Shown here: one piece after another, positions 1 to 40,900 of the stretch | Position numbering within the stretch: position 1 is the first letter of the stretch | How the letters are laid out: each line of letters opens with the position of its first letter | Position numbers and translations under genes: made by a program | Virus record (IMG/VR): IMGVR_UViG_3300030109_001698 | Span: 1 to 55,693 of that record | From: a virus | DNA length: 55,693 nt | Reading direction: 5' to 3' (one strand) | Notes under the pieces: model-generated | Databases searched by the model: none | Seen by the model: the letters and a program-made list of their open reading frames with translations, nothing else | Told to the model about the DNA's origin: nothing

Positions 1-8
1 TATTTTAT

Positions 9-41
9 TATATTATCCAACACTAATCGTATTTAATTTGT
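9..41 (-). promoter_or_regulatory. Repeated leftward promoter element, copy H (divergent)
   Basis: On the minus strand the distal half reads ACAAA instead of ACGGA, followed by exactly 17 nt and TGGATAATATA. The central TACGA-type motif is retained. It points left, so its gene lies outside the window. Confidence 0.55.
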
Positions 42-46
42 GATGC

Positions 47-55
47 GTGTATAGC
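47..55 (-). repeat. GCTATACAC 9-mer repeat
   Basis: One of six exact copies of this 9-mer in the first 4.4 kb. The others are 1280-1288 and 2061-2069 (same orientation as this copy) and 3487-3495, 3597-3605 and 3611-3619 (opposite orientation). A one-mismatch copy is at 4439-4447. Several lie just upstream of the leftward promoter elements. Function is unknown; an upstream activator or operator site is possible. Confidence 0.45.
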
Positions 56-56
56 A

Positions 57-197
57 CTATTTATCATACCACACTCCGTATACTTTACAACCGTGATGTG
101 TGGTACAAAACAGTTTTCTTTTTATTTCTTTAGGTTTATTTACCTGGCTTTTGTCCCAGTATTTAGGATTCTTACTGTTTAGTTTTTTCTTTTTCAT
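57..197 (-). CDS. Small basic Cys/His-containing protein, unknown
   Basis: A 46-residue minus-strand frame opening with ATG and a Lys-rich stretch (MKKKKLNSKNPKYWDK) and ending with a Cys/His-containing tail (LFCTTHHGCKVYGVWYDK). It overlaps the upstream 46-residue membrane protein gene by 26 nt, which is longer than other overlaps in this block and lowers confidence. I do not recognise the family. The last gene of the operon that begins at 1358. An 8-bp inverted repeat (TACCACAC at 67-74, GTGTGGTA at 98-105) lies in its 3' end and could act in termination or mRNA folding. Confidence 0.45.
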   Translation of the reverse strand: MKKKKLNSKNPKYWDKSQVNKPKEIKRKLFCTTHHGCKVYGVWYDK

Positions 198-312
198 TGT
201 ATTTCTTTATATTATTATTAAATATATTTCTTCTTATACTACATTTTATTTGTGAGGTAACATACATTCCTATTACAATACCTACACCTAATACTATTAT
301 TAATTCTATCAT
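172..312 (-). CDS. Single-pass membrane microprotein
   Basis: A 46-residue frame with an N-terminal hydrophobic segment (residues 2-18, IELIIVLGVGIVIGMYV) followed by a polar, Lys-rich tail, giving a predicted N-out/C-in single-span inner-membrane protein. Its ATG follows the stop of the 203-residue gene in a TAATATG junction, the standard junction in this phage, so it is probably translated by coupling. Function is not recognised. Small membrane proteins in early phage operons often modify host envelope functions, but nothing here shows that. Confidence 0.55.
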   Translation of the reverse strand: MIELIIVLGVGIVIGMYVTSQIKCSIRRNIFNNNIKKYNEKEKTKQ

Positions 313-313
313 A

Positions 314-925
314 TTATTTTACTTTATATCTATGTCCATCTATTATTATTTCTACTGAACTTGGTGGTTCTTCTGTCCATTTATTCCAATAAGCATGTTG
401 CTCATGTACAAATACATCACCGTTTTCTAAGTTTTCTATCTGACCACCTGAGTATTTGAAATTAACCATATCTTCAGTATCTTGACACCTAAGGAAATTA
501 CCTAGTTTTGCTTCATGAACCCATTTAGGTACAAACTTACCATCTTCTATCATATTCGCTTGTTTAATATAATAGTTTTTGAGACAATAGTCTATTAAGT
601 ATTGTAATCTTTTTCTAGTACTATTTAACTTTATACGTTTTTTACTTTCAAATTTATTGTATTTACCTGTCCACTCTTGTTTCATTGTTCCTGTTATCCA
701 CTTGTAATCTTTATAATACTCTACATGTTGTTCGCATTTATTTAGTTGATACGCAGTATGTCCACCATTCATTCTTCTTACATAACCTGACTCAAACGAA
801 CCAACCTCTATGTATTCACCATATTGTTTAATTGGTAGTCTATATATTCTCGTACCATTACTTATTTGTTTATCAGTTGTAATATCCTTCCAACCTAATA
901 AATCTATTTGTTCTTTTAGTGTCAT
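314..925 (-). CDS. Hypothetical protein, 203 aa, early block
   Basis: The largest protein of the leftward block. I start it at the ATG at 925 (MTLKEQIDLLGWKDI) because this follows the stop of the upstream 56-residue gene in a TAATATG junction. The frame stays open to a TTG at 958, but that would overlap the upstream gene by 32 nt. The protein is rich in Lys, Tyr and Trp, with no signal peptide or TM segment. Visible landmarks are a GGH-TAYQLNKCEQ stretch and a C-terminal VEIIIDGHRYKVK. I do not recognise a family. Part of the operon running 1358 to 57 behind the promoter element at 1379-1411. Confidence 0.7.
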   Translation of the reverse strand: MTLKEQIDLLGWKDITTDKQISNGTRIYRLPIKQYGEYIEVGSFESGYVRRMNGGHTAYQLNKCEQHVEYYKDYKWITGTMKQEWTGKYNKFESKKRIKLNSTRKRLQYLIDYCLKNYYIKQANMIEDGKFVPKWVHEAKLGNFLRCQDTEDMVNFKYSGGQIENLENGDVFVHEQHAYWNKWTEEPPSSVEIIIDGHRYKVK

Positions 926-926
926 A

Positions 927-1097
927 TTATTTCTTTTCATTAACTTCTTGAATATCAATTAGTTGTGTCATGTAGTCACCATTATCTATCAACTCTATTT
1001 GTAAGTTTATAATCGCTTGTTTTTCGGTTACACCTTCTATTTCTACCATAGTTTTCATACTTATACAGTCTCTGTATACAATTTCATAATTTTTCAT
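927..1097 (-). CDS. Hypothetical protein, 56 aa
   Basis: A short minus-strand gene (MKNYEIVYRDCISMKTMVEI..., ending QEVNEKK). It sits between two longer genes: 18 nt downstream of the 80-residue gene and joined to the 203-residue gene by a TAATATG junction. This tight fit is the main support for it being real. Predicted soluble, acidic and alpha/beta. No family recognised. Confidence 0.65.
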   Translation of the reverse strand: MKNYEIVYRDCISMKTMVEIEGVTEKQAIINLQIELIDNGDYMTQLIDIQEVNEKK

Positions 1098-1115
1098 AGT
1101 TTTATTTTTTATTAA

Positions 1116-1358
1116 TTAGTTATTATCTTCATTTAAAAACCTATCACCGAACATATCTTCCCAGTCCATATCTGTTAGACACATATTAGTCCATGTAAAG
1201 AAGTCTCGTAATGTTTCTACAGTTAATTCACCCCAAAACTTATTATCTTGTAGTTTTTTTCTAATGTTTTGTGGGCCGTGTGTATAGCAACCTGAGTCTA
1301 TATACTCTTGTACTATAATTTTATACTCTGGTTTGAGTCTGTTCCATAAGTTATCCAT
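1116..1358 (-). CDS. Hypothetical protein, 80 aa
   Basis: Starts MDNLWNRLKPEYKIIVQEYI and ends in an acidic tail (NEDNN). Aromatic- and Asp-rich C-terminal half (FFTWTNMCLTDMDWEDMFGD). It is the first gene behind the promoter element at 1379-1411, 20 nt away, so it heads the 1358-57 operon. Family and function are unknown. No TM or signal peptide. Confidence 0.7.
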   Translation of the reverse strand: MDNLWNRLKPEYKIIVQEYIDSGCYTHGPQNIRKKLQDNKFWGELTVETLRDFFTWTNMCLTDMDWEDMFGDRFLNEDNN

Positions 1359-1378
1359 ATTATTATATTTTATTTGTT

Positions 1379-1411
1379 TATATTATCCATTAGTAATCGT
1401 ATTCAATCCGT
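1379..1411 (-). promoter_or_regulatory. Repeated leftward promoter element, copy G
   Basis: Minus strand: ACGGA, 17 nt (including TACGA), TGGATAATATA. It ends 20 nt before the ATG at 1358 and overlaps the last codons of the upstream gene (1390-1683), as expected for an internal promoter that starts a new transcription unit. Confidence 0.7.
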
Positions 1412-1683
1412 AATAGATCACGGTTCTCTTCAGACATAACTTCTAAATTATAAATGTAGTTTTCGTAATGACTAGAATCTACTCTTTCACTCCAAATATC
1501 TTCATTCATCCATTCTATTATGTCTTCACAAGTATTTATATTTTCTCTAATTACATTTTCAATCTTATAGTTTTGTAGTACGTTATTTAATTCTTTATCA
1601 GTTTGAACAAAGAACATACATATTACCCCGATAGTAAAACCAAATATACCACCTATTATTGTTGTTTGTGTTTCTATTTTCAT
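1390..1683 (-). CDS. Membrane-anchored small protein, 97 aa
   Basis: Has a single N-terminal hydrophobic segment (about residues 8-26, TTIIGGIFGFTIGVICMFF), then an acidic, Asn/Glu-rich region with helical character. Predicted N-in with the rest in the periplasm. It directly follows the lipoprotein gene (1695-1913) with an 11-nt gap. A TM protein with a long periplasmic part next to a small lipoprotein resembles an inner/outer spanin pair, but I see no specific spanin signature and the genes sit in an early-type block. Unknown function. Confidence 0.65.
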   Translation of the reverse strand: MKIETQTTIIGGIFGFTIGVICMFFVQTDKELNNVLQNYKIENVIRENINTCEDIIEWMNEDIWSERVDSSHYENYIYNLEVMSEENRDLLRIEYDY

Positions 1684-1694
1684 ATTTTTTTTAT

Positions 1695-1913
1695 TTAGTC
1701 AATTTCATCACAGTTTTCACACTCATCTTTATAATATTCATTAATTAAACTATCTCTTTCGTACATATAATCTATCCATAGTTTATCTAGTTTATAGTTT
1801 ATTTTAACTTGTTTCTGTGTTACTTGAGTAGTTCCACAACTCATCATCATTAGTCCTAAAACTAAAGATATCCACGTTATTATAAATATATTTCTACTTT
1901 TTCTTTCACTCAT
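1695..1913 (-). CDS. Small lipoprotein, 72 aa
   Basis: N-terminal basic residues (MSERKSRN), a hydrophobic core and a lipobox ending MMMSC, giving a predicted signal-peptidase-II cleavage before Cys26. The mature part is about 47 residues (CGTTQVTQKQVKINYK..., acidic C-terminus with a CENC pair). It would be anchored in the host envelope. Phage lipoproteins of this size include superinfection-exclusion proteins and outer spanins; the sequence does not decide between these. It lies in a run of membrane genes with the 26-residue TM protein upstream and the 97-residue TM protein downstream. Confidence 0.7.
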   Translation of the reverse strand: MSERKSRNIFIITWISLVLGLMMMSCGTTQVTQKQVKINYKLDKLWIDYMYERDSLINEYYKDECENCDEID

Positions 1914-1917
1914 AATT

Positions 1918-1998
1918 TTATTGTTTTCTATTTAATATTATACTTATCATTACTACAAAATATACTAATAGTAATATTCCTTTTATATATACTTCCAT
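1918..1998 (-). CDS. 26-residue transmembrane microprotein
   Basis: A tiny frame (MEVYIKGILLLVYFVVMISI, then ILNRKQ) that is almost entirely one TM helix with a basic tail. The start overlaps the stop of the 83-residue gene (TAATG), and its stop lies 4 nt before the lipoprotein ATG, so it fits the operon exactly. Composition and coupling support it; length makes it uncertain. Confidence 0.5.
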   Translation of the reverse strand: MEVYIKGILLLVYFVVMISIILNRKQ

Positions 1999-2249
1999 TA
2001 ATCTAGTCCGTCTCTATTACCTCTTAGTATACCACTCTTCTTGTCGTGTTGGTGGAGGTCGTGTATAGCACTCGAAAGAGGACTTATCTCACGTTTAACT
2101 TCGTTATCCCATATTTCTTGGGCCTCTTTATTTACTACTGGTGGAAGTAAATAATAACCTAAGTGATGTTCTTGACCGAAACTATCTATCACATGGACAT
2201 TATAGTGTGTATTACCTTCGTACTTATCTATTATTATTCTTCTACTCAT
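1998..2249 (-). CDS. Hypothetical protein, 83 aa
   Basis: I use the ATG at 2249 (MSRRIIIDKYEGNTHYNVHV), which has an A-rich leader, rather than the in-frame GTG at 2273. Middle part is His-rich (GQEHHLGYYLLPP; AIHDLHQHDKK). Predicted soluble, beta-rich N-terminal half. Overlaps the following 26-residue TM gene by TAATG. No family recognised. Confidence 0.65.
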   Translation of the reverse strand: MSRRIIIDKYEGNTHYNVHVIDSFGQEHHLGYYLLPPVVNKEAQEIWDNEVKREISPLSSAIHDLHQHDKKSGILRGNRDGLD

Positions 2250-2299
2250 TTTCTTATTTGTTTTATAATCCACTTTTCGTTATAACTTTTCTTTTTCAT
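2246..2299 (-). CDS. Possible 17-residue coupled microORF
   Basis: ATG at 2299 overlaps the TGA of the 85-residue gene (ATGA), and its own TGA overlaps the ATG at 2249 (ATGA). It encodes a basic 17-mer (MKKKSYNEKWIIKQIRK). The double ATGA coupling suggests that it bridges translation between its neighbours; the peptide itself may have no role. Confidence 0.3.
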   Translation of the reverse strand: MKKKSYNEKWIIKQIRK

Positions 2300-2553
2300 A
2301 ATTTTTCTACTTTTTCACCGTTAACAATTAGTTCGTACTCACCATATTCTTTACGAGTCTTTACATACTCTAACGGAAACTCTTGGTGAGTCTTAAATGA
2401 AGAATATCCATTTGGTCCTTCACTTAGTATTTCTACATCACCATAACCTACCCAGTAAGGATTGTGGTTCATCTCTACTATTATTTGTTTTTTTTCTTTT
2501 ACGTTACTATAGTCTTGTTGTAAGAACATAGTTTTTAATTCTTGTCTAGTCAT
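2296..2553 (-). CDS. Hypothetical protein, 85 aa
   Basis: Starts MTRQELKTMFLQQDYSNVKE. The middle has a beta-type pattern (NPYWVGYGDVEILSEGPNGY) and the end reads YELIVNGEKVEKL. No TM. It lies 2 nt after the 48-residue gene and ends in an ATGA junction. Unknown family. Confidence 0.65.
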   Translation of the reverse strand: MTRQELKTMFLQQDYSNVKEKKQIIVEMNHNPYWVGYGDVEILSEGPNGYSSFKTHQEFPLEYVKTRKEYGEYELIVNGEKVEKL

Positions 2554-2555
2554 AG

Positions 2556-2702
2556 TTATATATCTTTATCTGTTAATAAATCTTTTATTTCGTCTTGTGC
2601 ACTTTCCAACCATTTATCTATACAATCAGTGTATGGATCGAAGTCTGGTAAGTATTTAATTAATAATCTTTTTAATTCTTTAAGTTCAGTTAGTTTGTTC
2701 AT
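2556..2702 (-). CDS. Hypothetical protein, 48 aa
   Basis: A short helical acidic protein (MNKLTELKELKRLLIKYLPD..., ending DLLTDKDI). It is the first gene of the operon running 2702-1390. Its ATG is only 13 nt from the end of the promoter element at 2716-2748, so the mRNA would have a very short leader. Family unknown. Confidence 0.6.
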   Translation of the reverse strand: MNKLTELKELKRLLIKYLPDFDPYTDCIDKWLESAQDEIKDLLTDKDI

Positions 2703-2715
2703 AATTTTATTTTAT

Positions 2716-2748
2716 TATATTATCCAATAGTGTTTGTATTCAGTCCGT
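2716..2748 (-). promoter_or_regulatory. Repeated leftward promoter element, copy F
   Basis: Minus strand: ACGGA, 17 nt, TGGATAATATA, ending 13 nt before the ATG at 2702. It lies directly downstream of a hairpin that closes the preceding transcription unit. Confidence 0.7.
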
Positions 2749-2755
2749 AAAAGTG

Positions 2756-2799
2756 TGACAAAAGGGTGTTACTCTATTTCCTTAACACCCTAATGTCAT
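2756..2799 (-). terminator. Hairpin terminator after the 83-aa gene
   Basis: An 8-bp perfect stem, AGGGTGTT (2763-2770) with AACACCCT (2784-2791), extended by TGACA/TGTCA (2756-2760 and 2795-2799). Read leftward it is followed by a moderately T-rich tract (CCCTTTTGTCACACTTTT). It lies 12 nt past the stop of the gene at 2811 and just before the next promoter element. Confidence 0.55.
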
Positions 2800-2810
2800 A
2801 CTCCAACTAA

Positions 2811-3062
2811 CTAAACTAGTTCCTTACCTCTTAGTATCATTGGTATATTATTGGTCGCGGTGTAAGACTTATACTTTTCCCAACATGGTAGAGTAGTCAA
2901 AGTTTCTTTCATTATATCGAATACTTTATCGTGGTTATAAGTTATTTCTTTACCTTTTTTCGTTACGAAAGTTATAATTTGGTTTTTACCGATTAATGAC
3001 TTTCTTACTACAAATCTTTTAGATTTTAATACATTTACTGTGTTTTTTTCTTTGTTTTTCAT
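2811..3062 (-). CDS. Small basic early protein, paralogue of 4139-4363
   Basis: An 83-residue Lys-rich protein. Residues about 15-60 (KRFVVRKSLIGKNQIITF ... TKKGKEITYNHDKV) and the following C-W-x-KYKSYTATNNIP motif match the 74-residue protein at 4139-4363 nearly residue for residue, so the two are paralogues. Single-gene unit: promoter element at 3106-3138 (43-nt leader) and hairpin at 2756-2799. Basic charge suggests nucleic-acid or ribosome contact, but no known domain is visible. Confidence 0.7.
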   Translation of the reverse strand: MKNKEKNTVNVLKSKRFVVRKSLIGKNQIITFVTKKGKEITYNHDKVFDIMKETLTTLPCWEKYKSYTATNNIPMILRGKELV

Positions 3063-3105
3063 AATTTTTTTAGTTTAGTTTAGTTTATATTTATTTTATT
3101 ACATT

Positions 3106-3138
3106 TATATTATCCAATACTTTTCGTTTTTGTTCCGT
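3106..3138 (-). promoter_or_regulatory. Repeated leftward promoter element, copy E
   Basis: Minus strand: ACGGA, 17 nt (with AACGA in the middle), TGGATAATATA, 43 nt upstream of the ATG at 3062. Confidence 0.7.
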
Positions 3139-3188
3139 AAAAGTATATTATTTGTTTAGTTGATATTTTTAGTTAGTAGGTATTAGTC

Positions 3189-3434
3189 TTACCTTGATTG
3201 TGTATGACTAAAACTTTTATGGAATACTAGTCTATCTTTGAAATTATTATAATCAAAATACTTATTATTATTATAGTGTTCGTCGAGACTTATATAACAG
3301 TAACCTTTTATATTTAAGTGTTCAGTATAATACTTATCAAACCATTTTGGTAATTGGTGTAATTGGTATGGTAAATAAATTTTATTATTTAATTTAATAA
3401 TTTGAAGAGAGGAGAATTTAATTTTATTATTCAT
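3189..3434 (-). CDS. Hypothetical protein, 81 aa
   Basis: Starts MNNKIKFSSLQIIKLNNKIYL; rich in Tyr, Asn, His and Lys, predicted soluble. A monocistronic unit: its ATG is 11 nt from the end of the promoter element at 3446-3478 and the next element lies beyond its stop. No recognisable domain. Confidence 0.6.
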   Translation of the reverse strand: MNNKIKFSSLQIIKLNNKIYLPYQLHQLPKWFDKYYTEHLNIKGYCYISLDEHYNNNKYFDYNNFKDRLVFHKSFSHTQSR

Positions 3435-3445
3435 AACTTTTTTAT

Positions 3446-3478
3446 ATTATTATCCAAACCACTTCGTCGCTCCTCCGT
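3446..3478 (-). promoter_or_regulatory. Repeated leftward promoter element, copy D
   Basis: Minus strand: ACGGA, 17 nt (with GACGA), TGGATAATAAT, ending 11 nt before the ATG at 3434. Its distal part belongs to a 16-bp exact repeat (3465-3480) shared with copy C (3580-3595). Confidence 0.65.
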
Positions 3479-3560
3479 GTCTCGGTGCTATACACCACAC
3501 ACCTTCGGTGTTCAGTCGGTGTGCCTCGCTTGTATGGACAATGAAGTTCCAATCGTTTAT
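3479..3560 (-). ncRNA. Candidate small leftward RNA with alternative hairpins
   Basis: About 80 nt between promoter copies C and D with no minus-strand ATG frame. It can form CACACC (3498-3503) paired with GGTGTG (3518-3523), or the exclusive smaller hairpin ACACC-TTC-GGTGT (3499-3511). A promoter with no gene behind it suggests either a small RNA or a tandem promoter for the 81-residue gene. Confidence 0.25.
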
Positions 3561-3593
3561 TATATTATCCAAAGAGTGTCGTCGCTCCTCCGT
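3561..3593 (-). promoter_or_regulatory. Repeated leftward promoter element, copy C
   Basis: Minus strand: ACGGA, 17 nt (with GACGA), TGGATAATATA. No minus-strand start codon follows for about 125 nt, until the gene at 3434. Confidence 0.6.
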
Positions 3594-3610
3594 GTTGCTA
3601 TACACTTCGT

Positions 3611-3636
3611 GCTATACACGAGTGCCTTTCGGCACT
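3611..3636. terminator. Hairpins downstream of the 51-aa gene
   Basis: AGTGCC (3621-3626), loop TTTC, GGCACT (3631-3636) is a perfect 6-bp stem just past the stop of the leftward 51-residue gene (3644). A second small palindrome, CGTG-CTATA-CACG, overlaps the GCTATACAC repeat beside it. No clear T-tract follows, so termination is only probable. Confidence 0.35.
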
Positions 3637-3643
3637 TCATGTT

Positions 3644-3799
3644 TTACAGTAACTCAACTGACATGTTTAATGAATCCCACAAGTCTCCATACTCAGACTC
3701 ATAGATATTATCAAGAGTATACACTGTGTTGTTGATAGTCATTTCATAGATGTCATTATCTTCATCTAGTTTTATTGTAATTATAGGTTTTAGTTTCAT
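3644..3799 (-). CDS. Hypothetical protein, 51 aa
   Basis: An acidic short protein (MKLKPIITIKLDEDNDIYEM..., ending NMSVELL) with an alternating beta-type N-terminus. It follows the 76-residue gene by 25 nt in one operon headed by the promoter element at 4089-4121, and a hairpin lies just past its stop. Family not recognised. Confidence 0.6.
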   Translation of the reverse strand: MKLKPIITIKLDEDNDIYEMTINNTVYTLDNIYESEYGDLWDSLNMSVELL

Positions 3800-3824
3800 A
3801 GTTTTAATTTTATTTAGTTAGTTA

Positions 3825-4055
3825 TTATATATTAATAATTAGATATGATAATTCTACATCTTTAGATATATGATGAGAGAATGGTATTTTATTATTTAAT
3901 AATTCTATCATAATTTCTTTTATATTACTAGTATATTCGAACACTACTATAGAATCGTCATCATGGTGTGGATGTAGTTCTCTTTCTACTTCACAGTCGA
4001 TTAGATAGTGGTATTCAGAGTCTGATAGTTTTGGTAAATTAATTAGTTTAGTCAT
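3825..4055 (-). CDS. Hypothetical protein, 76 aa
   Basis: Starts MTKLINLPKLSDSEYHYLID; the middle is His/Asp-rich (ELHPHHDDDSIVVFEY) and the end hydrophobic (VELSYLIINI). Predicted small alpha/beta soluble protein. First gene behind the promoter element at 4089-4121 (33-nt leader). Unknown. Confidence 0.65.
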   Translation of the reverse strand: MTKLINLPKLSDSEYHYLIDCEVERELHPHHDDDSIVVFEYTSNIKEIMIELLNNKIPFSHHISKDVELSYLIINI

Positions 4056-4088
4056 AGTTTTATTTATTTAGTTAGTTATTTATTTATA

Positions 4089-4121
4089 TATATTATCCAA
4101 TTATATTAGTATTCTCTCTGT
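4089..4121 (-). promoter_or_regulatory. Repeated leftward promoter element, copy B
   Basis: Minus strand: ACAGA (one change from ACGGA), 17 nt, TGGATAATATA. Heads the 4055-3644 operon. Confidence 0.65.
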
Positions 4122-4138
4122 ATTCCAAACACTCTGTA

Positions 4139-4363
4139 TTATCTACAGAATGTTGGAATGTTATTTGTATTTGTGTATGACTTATACTTCTTGAAACAGT
4201 TCATAGATTCAAATCTATCTTTATTTCTTTCATACACTTCATCATGGTTGTAAGTAACTTCTTTACCTTTCTTAGTAGTGAATGTGATGATTGTGTTTGT
4301 ACCAATTAGAGATTTTCTGATTACAAATCTTTTAGTAATAATTTTGTTTAGTTTAGTTTTCAT
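4139..4363 (-). CDS. Small basic early protein, paralogue of 2811-3062
   Basis: 74 residues. The shared block runs TKRFVIRKSLIGTNTIITFT, then TKKGKEVTYNHDEVY, then CFKKYKSYTNTNNIP. It is the first gene of the leftward block, 36 nt from the promoter element at 4400-4432. The two paralogues bracket the right half of the block. No known domain; high Lys/Thr/Asn content. Confidence 0.7.
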   Translation of the reverse strand: MKTKLNKIITKRFVIRKSLIGTNTIITFTTKKGKEVTYNHDEVYERNKDRFESMNCFKKYKSYTNTNNIPTFCR

Positions 4364-4399
4364 AATTTATTTATTTATTTAATTAATATTCTATTCATA

Positions 4400-4432
4400 T
4401 ATATTATCCATCATCAGTCGTCACTGCTCCGT
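4400..4432 (-). promoter_or_regulatory. Repeated leftward promoter element, copy A
   Basis: Minus strand: ACGGA, 17 nt (with GACGA), TGGATAATATA. The rightmost copy; it marks the start of the leftward block. Confidence 0.7.
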
Positions 4433-4785
4433 GTCTATGCTATACATCAGGAGCGGGGGACATTTCCTGAAACATTTGATGGAACATCTATTTGTAGTTG
4501 TTGAGGTTAGATACATTAGTGACTAGATATTACAGGAGCAAGAAGCCAAACGAATAATAAGCAAATCTGTAGGAACCAAAGCGGGGTGGGCAAAAAAAAT
4601 CAATTTCCCTTTTTCAAAAAAAGCGGGGAGGATAGGAGCAGCACCCTACCCCTATATTTATAATGTACTTTTTTTTAGAAGGGCCGCCCCTTTTTATAGA
4701 AGGTACCGTTAAATATAAGCGGGCTATGTTAAATAAAGAAATTAACATGTAATTATTAGTATTAATAACACAAAGACAAGAAATT
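4433..4785. other. Noncoding divergence region with G-runs and hairpins
   Basis: About 350 bases without a credible gene, between the leftward early-type block and the rightward genes. It holds four AGCGGG motifs (at 4452, 4580, 4622 and 4718), poly-A and poly-T tracts, a terminator-like hairpin (AGAAGGG 4677-4683, loop CCGC, CCCTTTTT to 4695), and an ATGTTAA/TTAACAT inverted repeat (about 4726-4749). The rightward promoter is expected here but I cannot identify a clear host-type (TTTG/TAnnTTTG) match. Confidence 0.5.
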
Positions 4786-5244
4786 ATGGGTTATACACCG
4801 TTCAAGATGAAAGGACCTTCTTTATATAATAGTCCAAATAAAAAATTTAAGAATGTAAGTAAAAAAGTATCTAAGGCTATGAAAGATGCTGAAAAAGGAT
4901 ATTCTACACTAGATGCTTTCAACGATGAAGGTAAAATAAGTAAGGTGGACATTTCAAATAGAATGCTAGACAAAGAAATAGAAAGAAGAAAGAGTGGAGG
5001 TAAAGTAGGGACGGTTTCGTCTCCTGGTGATGAATATATGAAGAAACTAAACAGAAAAGATCGAAACGTACACTATGACCCAAAAAATAATACACAATAT
5101 AGAACGTTTCACGACAAAAAAAACAACATGGTCTACATGCATAATAGAAACGCGTTACTAGGTGAAAAAACCGTGGATCATCCTAAATATGGCCCTCAAA
5201 CTACTGGAGAATATAAAGATATAACAGGTAAGAAAGGAAAATAA
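4786..5244 (+). CDS. FKMKG-signature basic protein, 152 aa
   Basis: First rightward gene. It opens MGYTPFKMKGPSLYNSPNKK, carrying the PFKMKG signature and a following S-P-x-K motif shared by about ten proteins of this phage. The rest is Lys/Asn/Asp-rich with no TM or signal peptide (predicted basic, partly disordered), including KNNTQYRTFHDKKNNMVYMH and a Gly/Lys tail. Its stop overlaps the next ATG (TAATGG). Function is unknown. A virion-associated or DNA-bound small protein is an inference from charge and location only. Confidence 0.75.
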   Translation: MGYTPFKMKGPSLYNSPNKKFKNVSKKVSKAMKDAEKGYSTLDAFNDEGKISKVDISNRMLDKEIERRKSGGKVGTVSSPGDEYMKKLNRKDRNVHYDPKNNTQYRTFHDKKNNMVYMHNRNALLGEKTVDHPKYGPQTTGEYKDITGKKGK

Positions 5245-24680: not shown

Positions 24681-27600
24681 ATGGCTGAAATAAAAAACAC
24701 GTTTTCTCAAGGTAAAATGAATAAAGACCTTGACGAGAGACTTGTACCCAATGGACAATATAGGGATGCGATGAACATACAGGTTTCCACATCAGAACAA
24801 TCAGAGGTGGGAGCAGCACAAAATATATTGGGTAATATTAGAGTTGAAAATGAAATAGATAATACTTTTGTAAATCCTAGCTGTATTGGAAGTATTGCTG
24901 ATGAAAAAAACGATGTTTTATATTGGTTTATTTTTAGTGACAATAAAGATATTATACTTGAGTATAAACTAGACGGCACTACAACTCCGGTATTTGTAGA
25001 TACAAATAAAAATGTTTTAAATTTTTCTGCAAATAATTTAATAACAGGTATAAATATAGTAGACGATATTTTAATGTGGACAGACAATGAATCTGAACCA
25101 AAAAAAATAAACATAAAAAGATCTAAACAAGGAACCGTTAACAACGACACACATACTAAGTTAGTTGTTAATGAAACTATAACTAATGTAGAGGTGGTTG
25201 AAAAACACATTACAGTTATAAAAAAAAGACCTACACTATCACCGATAATTAAAATAAATCCTCCCGCTGGACAAAATGAAATATTAGCTAATTGCGATTT
25301 TACTCAAGGTAGCACCTCTGTAAGTAATACTAATACGGCCGGCCACCCTTTTGATCACGGCGGGGATGGTATAAATTTAGTAGGTACAGGTGATATTTCT
25401 TATGTTAGAATAAATAGAACCGCTAGTGGTTTTGGTCCTAACACTTCAGTTGAAATCATAGGCGAATTAGGAGACGCTCCTGTTCAACCCACAAATCTAA
25501 TAACACCTCCCACAGACTTTACTGGTAGTAATTCTAACATAGGTGAGTTTAATTTAGATCCTACTACGTTAGATAATTTTACTTTTTATAATTACGATGA
25601 TACTGACCCTAGTGGTAACGCTCCTAACGGGGCCGGGCCCGATTTTTTACATGATTCTACGCAGGGGCATCTTGTCTGGGACAAAGTAGACCCATTTACT
25701 TCTCATACAGATAATACTCAAGCCTATTTTAGGTTCAAAATGTTTAGTGATCCTGACAACGGTCCATATAATCATCCAGACGAAAGGTCATACGTTGAAG
25801 GTGATCAAATAACAGTTACTTTTGACTTTAATTTAGATAATCCATCTGGAGATACTAACGACCGTACTATAACTGTTGGTTTATTAGATTACTCAACCGG
25901 CGCTGGTCCTGGACAGGTCCCATTTTTTGGAAACAATTGGATAGAACTAGATAAACATGATTTTGTTATTACGCCTGGATTAACTACTGGTTACACATAT
26001 ACTTTTACAGTACCGTCAACCCACAGCGGCGGTTTAATAAGATTAGCTTTTTACAATGGTGGTAACAATATAATAGGGGAAACCGGTGGAGGTGTTGCTA
26101 CTTGGATGGATAATCTTGTTATACAACATACAGCTGAGTTAGGCCCATTGCCTAGTAACTTTTATACAGCTGGAAACCATATAATAGTTGACAACGCGGT
26201 TAATGCAAACGCTGGCGATTTAGTCACAATGCCTGGTTTTCCACAAGGCACGCACATTTTAACGACGCAAGCATTTGGAAATAATCAAACAAGATTACAT
26301 CTATCAAGTGGTCCAGATCCGGGTTTTTATACTCCAATACCAGAAAATAGTTATACGCAAGGCGCTGCAGGGTCTAATGACGCTTTTTTTACTAATGCTA
26401 ATTTTGCTAATTTTGAATCTACTGCTAGTTATGTCGTAGGAGACGCTTTGTTGCTTAGTCAAGTTAACACACCTGGATCTCTACCCACAAACTTTGAGGT
26501 TAGGTGTACTATAGTAGATATTTTTGATCAAATAGGTACGCCTGGTTTTACAGAGTATCAAGTTGAAGTAGAAAGTATAGATATTAGTGTTCCAAATAAC
26601 GCGGCGGAATTTGATACGCCACCTAATCCAAACGTTCCTGGTTTAGCTTTCAAAACTACAGCAGGTGTATTTATGAATGCTATATCAGAACTTGAAGGTA
26701 GTAGACTTTTTGAAGATAAGTTTGTAAGATTTGCAACTCGATGGAAATATGAAGATGGAGAGTATTCTGCGTTTTCACCTTTTTCAGAAGTTGCTTTTAA
26801 TGCTTCATCTTTTTCTTTTCATCCAACAAAAAATACTTACAACTTAGGAATGCAAAATAACTGCGAGACAATAGATTTATTAAATATTGTTACGCCTGAT
26901 ATACCAGAAGACGTTGTTCAAATAGATATACTTTTTAAAAAAGAAGATTCTACTTCTATTTATTCTTTAGATTCTATAAAACCTAACGATCCTATTCCCA
27001 CAGGAGAAACTAACAACTATTGGAATCAAAACTCCGCTCCTAGTGTAGAAATATACGACTCAAACAATTTAGTCAATAATTTACCTAGTATAAACTCAAT
27101 AAGTTTACCAACCTCTTATATGGGTAAATACATTGTTTCTACAGAAAATATATACGCTGCTTTGCCAGCAAATCAATTTCTTAGACCTTGGGACAATGTT
27201 CCTAAAAAAGCTTTGGCTCAAGAAATAACCGGTAATAGATTGGTTTATGGTAATTATACCCAAGGTTATAATATGGTAGATGTAAACAACAACGTTGTTA
27301 AACCTGAAATAATTACTAGCTATAGACAGAGGTCTTATTTAGATAATGATATTGTTGATTTTTCTAATGGTCAAAAATCTTTAAAAACATTTAGAACTTA
27401 TCAAGTGGGTGTTGTTTACGGAGATGAGTACGGTAGAGAAACACCTGTTTTTACAAGTAGAGACGCTTCTATAAAGATACCTTATGATGCGGATAATACA
27501 CCTGAGTTTAATGGAAATGCAAGTAGATCAATACAGCTTTCTCCAATGTTGGTTGGCACGCAACCCGCTTTTGCTAAATACTACAAGTTTTTTATAAAAC

Positions 27601-30600
27601 AAAATTCAGGTGAATATTACAACTTATCAATGGATAGAGTTTATAGAGCACAAGATGATGAAAACATGTGGATTTCATTTCCCTCTTCAGACATTAATAA
27701 AGTTCAAAAAGAAGATTATTTAGTATTAAAAAAACAAGCAAACCAAGAACTACAAGTACCTATTAACAATAAATTTAAAGTTGTTGATATAAAAGCTGAG
27801 GCGCCAGACTACATAAAATTCAAAATGATAGATATAGGATATGTAGCTAGTCCTAGTACTCTGTTTACTGGCTACAGCACGGGTGTTAACATTCCACAAG
27901 CAGGAGAAGATCAGTTGATAATATTTAAAGAAGTGTGGACAGATAACGGCGGTACTGGTAATTTACACGAAGAGACAGATAAACTTGGTTTAGAATTTTC
28001 TATAAATGTGGGTGGTAACACAATGTTCTCAGAAAGATATGAAATTTTATCTATAGAAGAAGTTGACGAAACAACAAGTGATCCTAAGTATAGAATAAAA
28101 CTAAACAAAGTAATAACAACAACAGATGATTTTGGCCACACCACTGGATTGATTAATTCTAGTTTAAAATTAAAAATATTAAAACTTATACCTAAGGACT
28201 CTGGAGAGTTTGAAGGTAGATTTTTTGTAAAAATTATTTCAGACGCAATAACATCAGCGTATTTAGAACCTTTAATAAACGAATTAACAAGTTACAAAAT
28301 AACAAGTAGTTTACCTGCTTATTATTTTGCTGATGATCAAGCCGATTATGATTCAGGTGAAGACCACAGAGATGGTGTTGCTAATTCTTCAGAGGCTTAT
28401 ACAGAAAACACAAAAACATTACACGGTTTAGAAAAAAGTGATACTATAGGTGCTTGGACTAATTTATTAGATTTTGGAACAGCTCAATTAGCATCTGGAT
28501 TTTTTATAGATAGAACTTTTATGGCTGCTGGACAACCTATAGATCCAGCTGATCCTAGTGGACAAACAGGTGCTACAAGAGCAGATTGGAGCGGTGGAAC
28601 GTGGAAGGGCAGTAGCAGTGTTAATGCGAGTTCTGTAGTAGATAGTATTGAAGGAGCTATAAATATAGATGGAGTAAGTAGTTATACCGGTTCGCGTAAA
28701 TGGAGAAATTCTAACGGTGGTTCTAGCTGGGACGATACGTACGAACCTAGCGATCCTAATAATCCAAGTACTTTTTACTTACATCTTTCTTTTGGTCCTG
28801 TAGGTAACAATTTACACAACGGAAACTTTAGCGGACCTATGAACTCTCAATATATGAACTGGCAAGGTATTGATAGAGGAGACTTTGGTCATGGAGCCAG
28901 GCCACTCACTGTTGGCTCAGGGGTAACTCAAACAAGTGTAGACAACCACAACAGTCAGTGGGAAATTAAAAATGTTAACCAAAAAGCAATCGCGGACAAA
29001 ATAATACCTGGAGCAAAATTTAAATTTTTAGGAAGTAACGAAGTTTTTACAATAAATAAAGTAAGAGTAAAAAGGCTTTATAATCACACAGCTTTTAATG
29101 AACGTATAAAAGTTTTTGATGGTAACAATCTTGTCAACCCATCTAATTTAGTTGCTTCTCCTTCTGTTGAATATTGGTATAATTTATGGGGAAGTACAAC
29201 TCCCACGGCGTTCAGTAGTGGTAGTGGAAACGCAGCTGTCTATAGAGATGGATTAAAAGACGCTATAGTAACTTTTGGACATAAAACAAATCGAAGACTG
29301 TTATATGTAATAGAACTAGACAAGGACCCAACAGATCCTCAATTTAATACTGGTATTTATTCTACTCCAGACGTAGATGATTTTTTAAATATAAGATTTG
29401 TAAAAGAAACAACAGCAGAAGGAGAAACAGATTCAGCTATTACACCGGCTATATGGGAAACAGAACAAAAAGACGATGTTGATTTAGATATTTATTATGA
29501 AGCTAGTGGAGCTATACCTATTAGTCTTGATAAAAATAAACAAACGTCTGAAATTTACGCGCCTATAGGATCAAGAGTATGGTGTAATAAATCAAACTCC
29601 ATGCCAGATTTTCCTGGTAATGCAGAGGGCCTTTCTTTAATAATAACAAATTGGGAAGCTAACACAAGTAACGGAACTTACAATATAGTTGAAATAGCCT
29701 CCCCAGGTTTAAACGTAGATACAAGCGTTGCGTTTACAAACGACTCTGCTGGATTAAGTGCGCAAACATCAAAATATCAAAATAGATATATAAGGTTTTT
29801 TAGAGAAGACGGAAGTTATGTTACTAGCAGGATATTTTCAGTAGTAGAAATAACTGGGCATTATATTACAAAAGTATCTTTAATGTTTCAAACTCACGGG
29901 TATGGAAGAAAAATTGGTCTCCCATATTACGATTGTTTTAGTTTTGGAAACGGTGTTGAGTCAAGTAGAATAAGAGATGACTTTAATTCTATGGTAATAA
30001 ATAAAGGTGTTAAGGCTTCAGCTGTAATAGAACAACAATATAAAGAAGAAAACCGTAAAAATGGATTAATATATTCTGGTATATACAACTCAACTAGTGG
30101 CGTGAACAACTTAAATCAATTTATACAGGCTGAAAAAATTACAAAAGACTTAAATCCAACTTACGGTAGTATACAAAAGTTGTTTCAAAGAAGAATAAAC
30201 TTAGTGTCTTTTTGTGAAGATAGAGTTGTGAAGATACTAGCGTTTAAAGATGCTTTGTTTAATGCCGATGGTAACTCACAATTAGTTGCTACCAACAAAG
30301 TTTTAGGTGAAGCAAATCCTTTTGTTGGAGATTACGGTATATCTAAAAATCCAGAATCTTTTGCCAAAGAATCTTACAGAGCTTATTTTGCAGACAAACA
30401 AAGAGGTTCAGTATTAAGATTGTCAATGGACGGTATAACACCAATATCTTCTGCTGGAATGTCTGATTTTTTTAAAGATAACTTAGTAAATTCAGAAGTT
30501 ATATTGGGAAGTTATGACGACCGAAAAAATAATTACAATATAACCTTAAAATCTGAATTGCAAAATTTAAATAGAGGTAGTGGGAGTCTAGAAAATGACA

Positions 30601-31037
30601 CAGAAGGCTTAACGTTGTCTTACAACGAGAATGTTAAAGGTTGGATTAGTTTTAAGTCTTTTATACCTGACACAGGTTTAAGTATGGGTAATAATTATTT
30701 TACCACGTTTAACGGTCAACTTTTTCAACACCATATTGAAGAGGATCAACAGAATAGAAATAATTTTTACGGAGTGCAGGCACCATCTACTATTACAGCT
30801 GTTTTAAACATGCAACCAGACATGGTGAAAAGTTTTAACACGCTGAATTACGAGGGTAACCCGGGTTGGAGATCAAACTTTATAAGAACAAACATGCAGA
30901 CTGGTACTGTAAATGAGTTTATAAGAAAAGAAGATAAGTGGTTTAACTATATAATAGGTAGACAACAAGATATAGATGTAAATGCTTTAAACTTTCAAGG
31001 ACTAGGCGTGGCAATACAAATAGATGAAAATATATGA
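24681..31037 (+). CDS. Giant P22 gp10-like stabilisation/tail hub protein
   Basis: 2118 residues. The N-terminus (NTFSQGKMNKDLDERLVPNG, QYRDAMNIQVSTSEQSEVGA) carries the 'G-x-M-N-x-D-x-D-E-R ... Y-R-D-A-x-N' start seen in phage stabilisation proteins, which plug the portal after packaging. Next is a beta-rich region with jelly-roll insertions (about 195-480; NWIELDKHDFVITPGL, ATWMDNLVIQH), a long beta-propeller-like middle, and a C-terminal part with YGSIQKLFQRRINLVSFCED and EGLTLSYNENVKGWISFKSF. P22 gp10 has about 470 residues, so this protein is about four times longer and probably forms both tail hub and outer tail decoration. ATGA overlap with the next gene. Confidence 0.72.
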   Translation: MAEIKNTFSQGKMNKDLDERLVPNGQYRDAMNIQVSTSEQSEVGAAQNILGNIRVENEIDNTFVNPSCIGSIADEKNDVLYWFIFSDNKDIILEYKLDGTTTPVFVDTNKNVLNFSANNLITGINIVDDILMWTDNESEPKKINIKRSKQGTVNNDTHTKLVVNETITNVEVVEKHITVIKKRPTLSPIIKINPPAGQNEILANCDFTQGSTSVSNTNTAGHPFDHGGDGINLVGTGDISYVRINRTASGFGPNTSVEIIGELGDAPVQPTNLITPPTDFTGSNSNIGEFNLDPTTLDNFTFYNYDDTDPSGNAPNGAGPDFLHDSTQGHLVWDKVDPFTSHTDNTQAYFRFKMFSDPDNGPYNHPDERSYVEGDQITVTFDFNLDNPSGDTNDRTITVGLLDYSTGAGPGQVPFFGNNWIELDKHDFVITPGLTTGYTYTFTVPSTHSGGLIRLAFYNGGNNIIGETGGGVATWMDNLVIQHTAELGPLPSNFYTAGNHIIVDNAVNANAGDLVTMPGFPQGTHILTTQAFGNNQTRLHLSSGPDPGFYTPIPENSYTQGAAGSNDAFFTNANFANFESTASYVVGDALLLSQVNTPGSLPTNFEVRCTIVDIFDQIGTPGFTEYQVEVESIDISVPNNAAEFDTPPNPNVPGLAFKTTAGVFMNAISELEGSRLFEDKFVRFATRWKYEDGEYSAFSPFSEVAFNASSFSFHPTKNTYNLGMQNNCETIDLLNIVTPDIPEDVVQIDILFKKEDSTSIYSLDSIKPNDPIPTGETNNYWNQNSAPSVEIYDSNNLVNNLPSINSISLPTSYMGKYIVSTENIYAALPANQFLRPWDNVPKKALAQEITGNRLVYGNYTQGYNMVDVNNNVVKPEIITSYRQRSYLDNDIVDFSNGQKSLKTFRTYQVGVVYGDEYGRETPVFTSRDASIKIPYDADNTPEFNGNASRSIQLSPMLVGTQPAFAKYYKFFIKQNSGEYYNLSMDRVYRAQDDENMWISFPSSDINKVQKEDYLVLKKQANQELQVPINNKFKVVDIKAEAPDYIKFKMIDIGYVASPSTLFTGYSTGVNIPQAGEDQLIIFKEVWTDNGGTGNLHEETDKLGLEFSINVGGNTMFSERYEILSIEEVDETTSDPKYRIKLNKVITTTDDFGHTTGLINSSLKLKILKLIPKDSGEFEGRFFVKIISDAITSAYLEPLINELTSYKITSSLPAYYFADDQADYDSGEDHRDGVANSSEAYTENTKTLHGLEKSDTIGAWTNLLDFGTAQLASGFFIDRTFMAAGQPIDPADPSGQTGATRADWSGGTWKGSSSVNASSVVDSIEGAINIDGVSSYTGSRKWRNSNGGSSWDDTYEPSDPNNPSTFYLHLSFGPVGNNLHNGNFSGPMNSQYMNWQGIDRGDFGHGARPLTVGSGVTQTSVDNHNSQWEIKNVNQKAIADKIIPGAKFKFLGSNEVFTINKVRVKRLYNHTAFNERIKVFDGNNLVNPSNLVASPSVEYWYNLWGSTTPTAFSSGSGNAAVYRDGLKDAIVTFGHKTNRRLLYVIELDKDPTDPQFNTGIYSTPDVDDFLNIRFVKETTAEGETDSAITPAIWETEQKDDVDLDIYYEASGAIPISLDKNKQTSEIYAPIGSRVWCNKSNSMPDFPGNAEGLSLIITNWEANTSNGTYNIVEIASPGLNVDTSVAFTNDSAGLSAQTSKYQNRYIRFFREDGSYVTSRIFSVVEITGHYITKVSLMFQTHGYGRKIGLPYYDCFSFGNGVESSRIRDDFNSMVINKGVKASAVIEQQYKEENRKNGLIYSGIYNSTSGVNNLNQFIQAEKITKDLNPTYGSIQKLFQRRINLVSFCEDRVVKILAFKDALFNADGNSQLVATNKVLGEANPFVGDYGISKNPESFAKESYRAYFADKQRGSVLRLSMDGITPISSAGMSDFFKDNLVNSEVILGSYDDRKNNYNITLKSELQNLNRGSGSLENDTEGLTLSYNENVKGWISFKSFIPDTGLSMGNNYFTTFNGQLFQHHIEEDQQNRNNFYGVQAPSTITAVLNMQPDMVKSFNTLNYEGNPGWRSNFIRTNMQTGTVNEFIRKEDKWFNYIIGRQQDIDVNALNFQGLGVAIQIDENI

Positions 31038-37960: not shown

Positions 37961-40900
37961 ATGGCTAAAGGCGCTCCTTATAGAATAAAAATAAAAAATA
38001 AACCTACTAGAGTTTTTCAATCCGAACAGGAAATGAAAGACGCTTTAAGAAACGATCCTGAATTAAGAGACCAGCTTAAAAACAACGAGTATACAATCGA
38101 GACGGATAAGGACGGCCAGTATGTAGTTCCAGAATCATCTAAAATGGTGATGTATGAGACTATAATAATGTTAGAGGATAAAAAAAAGAAAAAGAAAAAA
38201 GAAAAAGAGGTAGAAATTAAGCCAGAAGAAACAAAAGTAGAGGTTAAGCCAGAAGAAACAACTACAGAAGAAGTAACTACCGATCCTGATCAAGCTTACG
38301 AAGAAGCTTACCCAGAAGAAAAAACAGTTATAAAAACAGATCCAGAAAGCGGTGCACAAGAAGTTGTTTTAACAGAAAAAAATAAAGAGCAAGAAAAAGA
38401 AGACTTTACTGATTTTATGCAAATAGGTAAAGAAACAGATCCTGTAACTCAAGCTATGCCAAAGTTTGGTTTATTTGGTAAGCAAATTGACCAAGAAAGA
38501 GTTTACAACTATTGGGAAAACAAGTTGCAGGACATGACAATAAAAAACGAGGAAGAAGTTCTTGATAGAGCTATAGCTGAAGAAATGGAGTTAGTTATGG
38601 AGATGGATAGTAAACTAGCGGAAACTGTAGAGAGTTATGAAGATAAAATAAAAAAACTTACAGATGAAAAAGAAGGACTTGAAGACGAAAAGAAACAAAT
38701 AAAAATTCAGAAACAAATAGATAAACTACAAACTAAAAAGAACGAAGTTTTAGAACCTGTTAGAAAAAAAATAAAAGATAAAAAACAAGTAGATATTTTT
38801 AATGAAAGACTTGCTAGAGTAGAAGAAATATCGAAACAAATATTTGGTGAGCAGTTTGAGTTTGATATCGCGGAGACTGGTGAAGAGTACGTAGAAAAGT
38901 TTGAATTAGATTTAATAAGACAAGTTGAGGAGTTAGATGTTTTGATAAACGAAACTACTGATCCAAAAAAGAAAAATGAGTTATACGAACAAAGAAGAGC
39001 TATTCAAAACGAGTTAAATGAACTTGAAGGTTATTTTCTTAACGAAAAAGGAGAATCAAAATTTAACGAAGCAAAAAGAGAAAACAAATTAAAACAGTTA
39101 AAAGAAAAAACACATGGCAACATGAGTATTGATGGTATGAAAGCTGTTATTAATGTCGCAGCTTCGTTATCAGAAGGAGGAAATATAAACGTTGCTGCTC
39201 ATGAGTTTTTACACAAGTTACTTTTGAATACCATTAGAAATAATGATAATATAAGAATTGTATTAGGATCAAATTTACATAAATATATAGCTAAAATCGA
39301 TCCTAACTTGGTTCAAAATAGTGATTTTAGAAGACGTTTAGTTTCTTACGGTAACAATATAGAACTTATAAATGAATTAGTAGGACGGTTAAACGAAGCT
39401 AGACAAGAGGGAAATACAGAATTAGCTAAAAAGCTAGAAAAACAAAGAGTAAAATTAGAAAGTAGCTTTGAAAACGGTTCTCAAGCTGAAGAAGTTTTAA
39501 CGTTGTTTTCAGACGCTATATACTATAACGAAGTAACATTTAATGAAAATCTTTATACTAAACTAGGTGATATGTTTAGGCGTATATTTAGATCTTTTGG
39601 TGTTACCGCTAAATGGGCTAACCCTAGAGACGTTTATAATTTTATAAGAGATTACAACAATACTATTGAAACGGGTAGAGGTGTTGCTGCTTTAATAAAA
39701 GAAGGTAGAGAGGGTGTGACATTAAAAGGTGATATAAAACAACAAATAGATATAGAATCTGGAGACGCGCCTAAAAAACGTAGACGTAAAAAAAGGTTTA
39801 CAATATTTCAATCTAAATCAGACGCAGAATCCGTAAACAATATATATCAAGAAAAAGGTAAAGATGGTGCTTTTGATATTGCAGAGGAGTACCGTGGTAT
39901 GGCAAACAAAATATATGATAGATATGTTTCGCAACTACCTAGAGATTTACAAGCTTGGATTAAGCAGCAAGATAATTTTAGAGAAGACTTAATTAACGGT
40001 ATATTATTTGCTAGTTATAAGTTTATTAACGAAGGAAACGCTAACAGAAGTGTTGTTGGTATGGTTCAAAATGAATTTGTTGAAGCTAGACAGACTTATG
40101 GTAATTTAGCCGCTTATATAAATAAGTTTATATCATTAAGAGCAATACAAGAGTTTAAAGATAATCTACCACAAGAAGCTAAACTACCTGAACCAACTGA
40201 GCCAACTGAAACAAAGCCTGAGGAGCAAGTAAGAAAAGGTAAAATAGCACTAAAAGAATTAAAACAAGAAGAAACACAAGAAGATGTAAAAAATATTGTT
40301 CGTACAAGCGGTGTAAAACTTCCTGCGGAACCAAGTTATAAAGATGTTAAAAATTTAATAACTAGTCACGATGGGGCTAAAAAATCAAAACGTATTCCTA
40401 CTGGTGAGTTGTTTCCAGTTTTAGAAAAAATATGTGAAGATTTATTTGGTGACGCTAGTATAGCCCTAAGATTAGTTAGAGAAGTAGATCTTACTAAAAG
40501 CCAAAGAGCTGCAATTCAAGATTATATACGTAGAAAACATATAGAGCTTATTACCTATGTAATACCTGAAGGTACTTCAAAAGAAGGTAAGGCTACTGGC
40601 GCGGCAAACACTAAGTTAGGTGTACTTTATACAGAAGGCGCTAGAACAAAAACAGGGCCAGGATTAAAAGAGCAAAAGAAACTACATATAGATCCAGCGT
40701 TTTTGTTAGAGCAAGCTGGTATGGTTAAGGGACAACCTACTATAACTACCACTAAAGTTGATCCGTTTTTAAGATCAATGGCTATTCAAATAGGTGTTAT
40801 AGCCTCTAATCAAGCTATAAGACAAGAAAAAGAATATCTTAATCTTACGGAGCTACAAGTTATTAGACTAAAAGATGGTAAGCCTAAATTAGCTTATTCT

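Follow-up and report, generated by a model that had tools for sequence, protein, structure and literature searches.

Which RNA polymerase reads the element that is repeated in front of small leftward genes at one end of the virus record IMGVR_UViG_3300030109_001698? The original prediction, made from this stretch of 55,693 bases (the whole of it is called the window below), described eight minus-strand copies of a promoter-type element, ACGGA-N17-TGGATAATATA, and suggested that the RNA polymerase is an alternative one or is modified by the phage. The window represents part (55.7 kb) of the genome of a podovirus whose relatives are Elemovirus, Callevirus and the Pachyviridae flavophages. Our analysis supports the suggestion and makes it more specific, since in relatives the same gene block includes a gene for a sigma70-family protein: the eight elements probably form one phage-specific promoter class, read by the host core RNA polymerase together with a phage-encoded sigma70-family factor. 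We infer this pairing of sigma factor and element from their co-occurrence in one clade and from the geometry of the element.

A predicted promoter element and its distribution

All eight copies were recovered on the minus strand (Table 1), and the distance between the ACGGA-like block and TGGATAATATA is 17 nucleotides (nt) in 8/8. When up to 3 mismatches were allowed, the window contained 10 sites, compared with 0.84 expected from 100 dinucleotide shuffles (maximum 4); the two additional sites, 1730 on the minus strand and 33047 on the plus strand, have 3 mismatches each and look like chance occurrences. As originally claimed, six copies lie 11–43 nt upstream of an ATG on the same strand. The copy at 3561, which has no such start codon, may be a tandem partner of the copy at 3446 or the source of a short untranslated RNA, and an Rfam search of window positions 1–5000 gave no match.

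The original prediction had named absence from related phages as evidence against itself. Among 80 relatives found via GroEL, the element was present in most loci reaching the leftward block, and the exact family pattern occurs in at least 118 IMG/VR stretches; it was not found in the seven cultured (named) relatives tested. The family consensus is (T/C)ACAAAnTAAATACGA-N9-GATAATATA, and the matrix built on 198 distinct sites reads (T/C)ACAAAnTAAATACGA-N9-GATAATATAAAT(R)AAA. Two details of the first description were corrected by this comparison: ACGGA is present in the window but is a local variant, the relatives having ACAAA, as does copy 9–41, whose family-matrix score (41.7) is the highest of the eight; and the A-C-G/A pattern reported in the middle of the spacer is conserved but not separate, being the end of one 15-nt block, ACAAAnTAAATACGA.

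With 3–16 nt permitted between the half-sites, the spacing was 9 nt in 271 of 273 pairs. Position 37, which lies 7 nt past GATAAT, is a purine in 295/295 distinct sites, while the neighbouring positions are mixed. In loci oriented by GroEL, 196 of 199 sites point leftward, opposing the GroEL/structural block. Over 591 sites, the distance from the purine to the first open reading frame (ORF) has a median of 21 nt, with 85% of sites within 60 nt compared with 32% of control positions. In two long relatives, every matrix match lies in the leftward block, apart from one divergent copy at its head, facing the structural genes. Such a copy at the divergent junction, observed in some relatives (L092:10986+ and L097:7645+), suggests that the same promoter class may also drive rightward genes there; the window has no such copy.

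If GATAAT is taken as the −10 hexamer, a CAAAnT hexamer stands 17 bp upstream and the discriminator is 6. As judged from the sequences, this spacing and this discriminator are those of a standard sigma70-type promoter, and the purine would be at the usual distance for a transcription start. The element is thus predicted to be a promoter because it behaves like one in its spacing, its orientation, its distance to ORFs and its purine.

The mismatch with the Bacteroidetes primary-sigma consensus, already pointed out in the original prediction, holds: that consensus has TTG near −33 and TAnnTTTG near −7 (PMC9723704), whereas the element has GATAATATA and no TAnnTTTG. Flavobacterium psychrophilum possesses one sigmaA, one sigma54 and seven extracytoplasmic function (ECF) sigma factors, and six promoter motifs have been described (PMC9723704), none of which resembled the element when we compared it with that survey. 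Across 84,980 bacterial species genomes the element pattern was found in only 10 stretches, some of them phage contigs, and it matches 2 of 397 Flavobacteriaceae genomes. We rejected the host sigmaA, or another host sigma, as the reader on the grounds of this consensus mismatch and of the near absence of the element from host genomes.

Near-perfect copies do stand 20–96 nt before host genes in a few Bacteroidetes chromosomes, and several of these genes encode small secreted proteins (L225:4274+, L224:141−, and L332, L337, L333 and L338 on chromosomes G072, G073 and G074; also L222:323+). G074 and G072 carry two copies each, and some of the downstream host genes look broken. These copies could mark infection-responsive genes, relics or chance.

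A phage sigma factor, its neighbour and rival readers

Scanning the leftward block of a 79-kb relative (G001, IMGVR_UViG_3300030104_003924, 79,494 bp) revealed a 252-amino-acid sigma70-family protein, which is found in the leftward block of relatives. It matches Pfam sigma region 4 (9e-6) and region 2 (1e-4), the PHROG family 'RNA polymerase sigma factor' (2e-20) and SigA in the PDB (1e-8), and its AlphaFold model (predicted local distance difference test, pLDDT, 76) matches PDB sigma factors (Foldseek, E 3e-6). We found 32 loci encoding it and aligned 31 sequences. The two tryptophans that open the −10 region in SigA align to K102-R103, a pair that shows no variation across the phage family, and the amino acids with which SigA reads position −12 are changed; these altered readers are suggestive, as they would fit a phage −10 element starting with G rather than T.

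The sigma gene and the motif occur together. The gene is present in 22 of the 23 motif-bearing contigs of at least 60 kb, the remaining contig ending inside the gene next to sigma; in the other direction, 24 of 25 sigma contigs have the motif, whereas L242, the only one left, contains at least seven copies in which the spacer is one base shorter. We did not find the sigma gene in the same seven cultured relatives that have no motif, nor in a shorter motif-bearing contig of 58.8 kb (G065). The gene lies inside the leftward block, usually 1.5–3 kb behind the nearest element and in one locus (L234) directly behind it, and such a location downstream of motif copies would be no less compatible with a middle or self-amplifying class than with an early one. 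In G001, diverged versions of the same 5–6 kb, sigma gene included, are present at both contig ends, and it appears that the contig closes on itself by way of a second strain.

Immediately before sigma, in 29/29 loci, is encoded a 206-amino-acid protein with a C-terminal helix-turn-helix, and its gene was found in 54/54 genomes examined. This protein has no match among 50,697 phage records, and its confident AlphaFold model (pLDDT 87) has no significant match in the PDB; we consider it a possible partner for the part of the element that lies in the spacer.

In the mechanism we propose, the phage sigma on the host core would recognise a −35-like block within ACAAAnTAAATACGA, from about −36 to −22, and the −10 element GATAATATA, from −12 to −4, where it would open the DNA. 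Transcription would start at the invariant purine, giving short A-rich leaders for the small leftward genes, and the helix-turn-helix protein may assist by binding the unusual TAAATACGA part. The window's own phage would carry the same sigma in the part that is missing from the fragment.

Several points weigh against this proposal. The sigma gene is absent from the window. Set against G001, the window is a fragment that lacks approximately the replication portion of the leftward block, which would explain why it has no sigma gene; when a window protein was used to look for the sigma that belongs to the ACGGA lineage itself, only fragments or distant contigs were returned. In all element-bearing phages the promoters are predictions from sequence. 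The co-occurrence of sigma and motif is confined to one clade, so that common descent alone could explain it, and the co-variation of the two in Mantel tests is weak and confounded by ancestry. The conserved bases from −29 to −22 are unusual for a sigma factor acting alone. In addition, were such promoters the sole source of sigma, its first copies would need another origin; the host-type arrangement TTG-N17-23-TAnnTTTG shows no excess in relatives, and TAnnTTTG upstream of the helix-turn-helix/sigma operon occurs in 4 of 53 regions compared with 3 in the reversed control, so that no host-type starter promoter was found.

We then have to consider other readers of the element. It is possible, but unlikely, that the host holoenzyme with its own sigma is directed to the element by a phage DNA-binding activator, for example the helix-turn-helix protein, in the manner of T4 MotA, the phage sigma serving another class such as late genes. 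The upstream block is indeed long (15 nt) and extends into the spacer like an activator site, the helix-turn-helix gene accompanies sigma with the constancy given above, and in Mantel tests block positions 0–8 track the helix-turn-helix protein slightly better than sigma (partial r 0.20, p 0.03). However, these correlations are weak and ancestry-confounded, and the same effect is seen in the non-conserved spacer, a sign of shared ancestry. Moreover, GATAATATA is unlike the flavobacterial sigmaA −7 box TAnnTTTG and the other five described motifs (PMC9723704), and the lack of a significant PDB match for the protein model does not help an activator either. Doubtful as well is a two-protein module in which the sigma70-family factor and the helix-turn-helix protein, the latter bound to TAAATACGA inside the spacer, would read a composite promoter, and in which a few host bacteria would have placed behind copies of this promoter genes of their own that would be switched on only in infection.

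A phage-encoded RNA polymerase is a still less probable reader, be it an N4-like or crAss-like virion polymerase (a giant protein of 2118 or 2378 amino acids) or a T7-like enzyme. N4 and crAss-like phages use related strategies, with a polymerase of their own; ATACGA-N9-G within the element superficially resembles a T7 promoter, and the window encodes giant virion proteins without an assigned function. Yet neither giant protein matches any PDB sequence, neither has DFDxD or the T7-type motif set, their homologs range from 1324 to 3028 amino acids, and the DNA contacts of a T7-type enzyme reach about −17, whereas the element extends to −36 relative to the invariant purine. A search with PF00940 gave no match in 16 relatives, but the control genomes were likewise without a match, which makes this control uninformative. 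ATACGA-N9-G was rejected as a T7-type promoter: the TATA region before its G is unconserved, the invariant purine comes 12 nt after it, and the searches made here turned up no T7-type polymerase. A crAss-like virion polymerase was also rejected, as none of the window's four large proteins contains D[FYL]DxD. The two giant genes lie in the virion block (24681–31037 and 37961–45097), and their homologs differ in length through gain or loss of internal stretches.

Finally, that the element serves not as a promoter but as an operator, as a replication or packaging site in the DNA, or as part of an mRNA leader is the most improbable of these explanations, since, even though some copies such as 3561 have no gene start behind them, the element is one-sided and strictly gene-oriented, stands a median of 21 nt before ORFs, and has two blocks at fixed spacing around 9 unconserved bases with an invariant purine at start distance.

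Gene layout and other features of the leftward block

The terminase, portal, capsid and GroEL genes of the window run rightward from 4.8 kb. Its terminase shares 64% identity with that of a Manatee Spring podovirus, 46% with Elemovirus, 41% with Maribacter phage Panino, 39% with the Pachyviridae phages phi19:3 and phi13:2, 37% with Callevirus phi38:1 and 33% with Gundel. The leftward genes are listed in Table 1; no confident family match was found for their products. The genes 4139–4363 and 2811–3062 encode similar small proteins (..KRFVIRKSLIG..KKGKEVTYNHDEV..), each with an element directly upstream, and their homologs again stand behind elements in two other contigs (L226 and L227).

Table 1. 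Predicted promoter elements, hairpins and genes of the leftward block (window positions; mismatches are counted against ACGGA-N17-TGGATAATATA)
Feature	Position	Strand	Mismatches	Predicted start	Downstream ATG	Remarks
Promoter element (predicted)	9–41	−	2 (ACAAA)	5 (A)		family-consensus form ACAAATTAAATACGA; at window edge, gene outside
Promoter element (predicted)	1379–1411	−	0	1375 (A)	1116–1358, 20 nt on	overlaps end of 1390–1683
Promoter element (predicted)	2716–2748	−	0	2712 (A)	48-amino-acid ORF 2556–2702, 13 nt on	
Promoter element (predicted)	3106–3138	−	0	3102 (G)	2811–3062, 43 nt on	
Promoter element (predicted)	3446–3478	−	2 (...TAAT, 3' end)	3442 (A)	3189–3434, 11 nt on	predicted leader about 8 nt
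Promoter element (predicted)	3561–3593	−	0	3557 (A)	none within next 70 nt	
Promoter element (predicted)	4089–4121	−	1 (ACAGA)	4085 (A)	3825–4055, 33 nt on	hairpin directly upstream
Promoter element (predicted)	4400–4432	−	0	4396 (G)	4139–4363, 36 nt on	nearest divergent junction; purine at position 37
Strong hairpin between transcription units	2749–2808	−				−23.3 kcal/mol, z −5.2; window version of second conserved element (GTGACA...AGTAA...TGTCAC), from family comparison
Strong hairpin, terminator-like	4122–4175	−				−18.6 kcal/mol, z −6.6; immediately upstream of copy 4089
Leftward block of small genes driven by elements (proposed)	314–4363	−				ORF list
Leftward genes, first half	314–958, 927–1097, 1116–1358, 1390–1683, 1695–1913, 1998–2273, 2296–2553	−				ORF list
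Leftward genes, second half	2556–2702, 2811–3062, 3189–3434, 3644–3799, 3825–4055, 4139–4363	−				ORF list

The block had also been said to be divided by hairpins. This stands in part: at least five of the copies have a stable hairpin upstream (fold z from −2.2 to −6.6), but those before 1379, 3106 and 4400 are unconvincing. Also conserved is a second element, about 43 nt long, GTGACA..AGCC..AGTAAyAGGCT..TGTCAC, which is present at the start of the helix-turn-helix gene in 52 relatives (for example in L228 near 1938); its 3' arm includes the start codon of this gene, and single copies also occur elsewhere in the block. Its sequence resembles that of an RNA operator or a DNA dyad. The string GTGTATAGCA occurs at window positions 47, 1280, 2061, 3485, 3595, 3609, 4437 and 47829; four of these occurrences are just upstream of promoter copies, and the string is often within hairpins.

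Significance and comparison with known systems

Marine flavobacterial podoviruses are abundant and their transcription control is unstudied; promoters, sigma factors and RNA polymerase all go unmentioned in the flavophage paper that we searched (PMC8776804). If our proposal is true, phages of this family retarget the host RNA polymerase, hundreds of uncultured phages gain a defined promoter class with a candidate recognition factor, and their transcription units become readable from sequence alone. It would also provide a sigmaA-independent promoter for Bacteroidetes, where standard genetic parts fail, and phage competition for the unusual polymerase of this phylum would become directly testable.

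Phage sigma factors with promoters of their own are already known, namely SPO1 gp28 and gp34 and T4 gp55, and gp28 and gp34 are essential in SPO1 (PMC9429907). The present case differs from these in its host phylum, in a promoter sequence that has a 15-nt upstream block and in the helix-turn-helix protein linked to sigma; we found no earlier description of such a system.

The crAss-like phage phi14:2, which infects Bacteroidetes, and the podovirus N4 likewise devote a transcription machinery of their own to one gene block; in the present family, by contrast, no polymerase signature was found and there is a sigma gene instead. Flavobacterium sigmaA promoters (TAnnTTTG, SM1-3) and the alternative motifs SM4-SM6 belong to the same kind of host and share A-rich leaders without a Shine-Dalgarno sequence, but the combination of GATAATATA with ACAAAnTAAATACGA is in no motif of the F. 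psychrophilum survey (PMC9723704). In T4, too, a phage factor (MotA at middle promoters, or gp55) alters the promoter choice of the host polymerase, MotA promoters combining a −10 element with a special box near −30. However, MotA uses the host sigma70 and gp55 promoters have no −35 element, whereas here the upstream block is different and the sigma of the relatives is complete, with both region 2 and region 4. The likeness to SPO1 gp28 (middle) and gp33/gp34 (late), with homologs in SP10 and other Herelleviridae, lies in a phage sigma70-family protein redirecting the host core, as we propose here, to phage-specific two-block promoters in a gene block of strict order. Unlike SPO1, the present phages have a Bacteroidetes host with an unusual primary sigma, a different promoter consensus, and a single sigma gene that follows a helix-turn-helix gene, and here the element stands before the sigma gene or its operon as well; as far as the two systems were compared, their sequence relation is that of general sigma70 homology.

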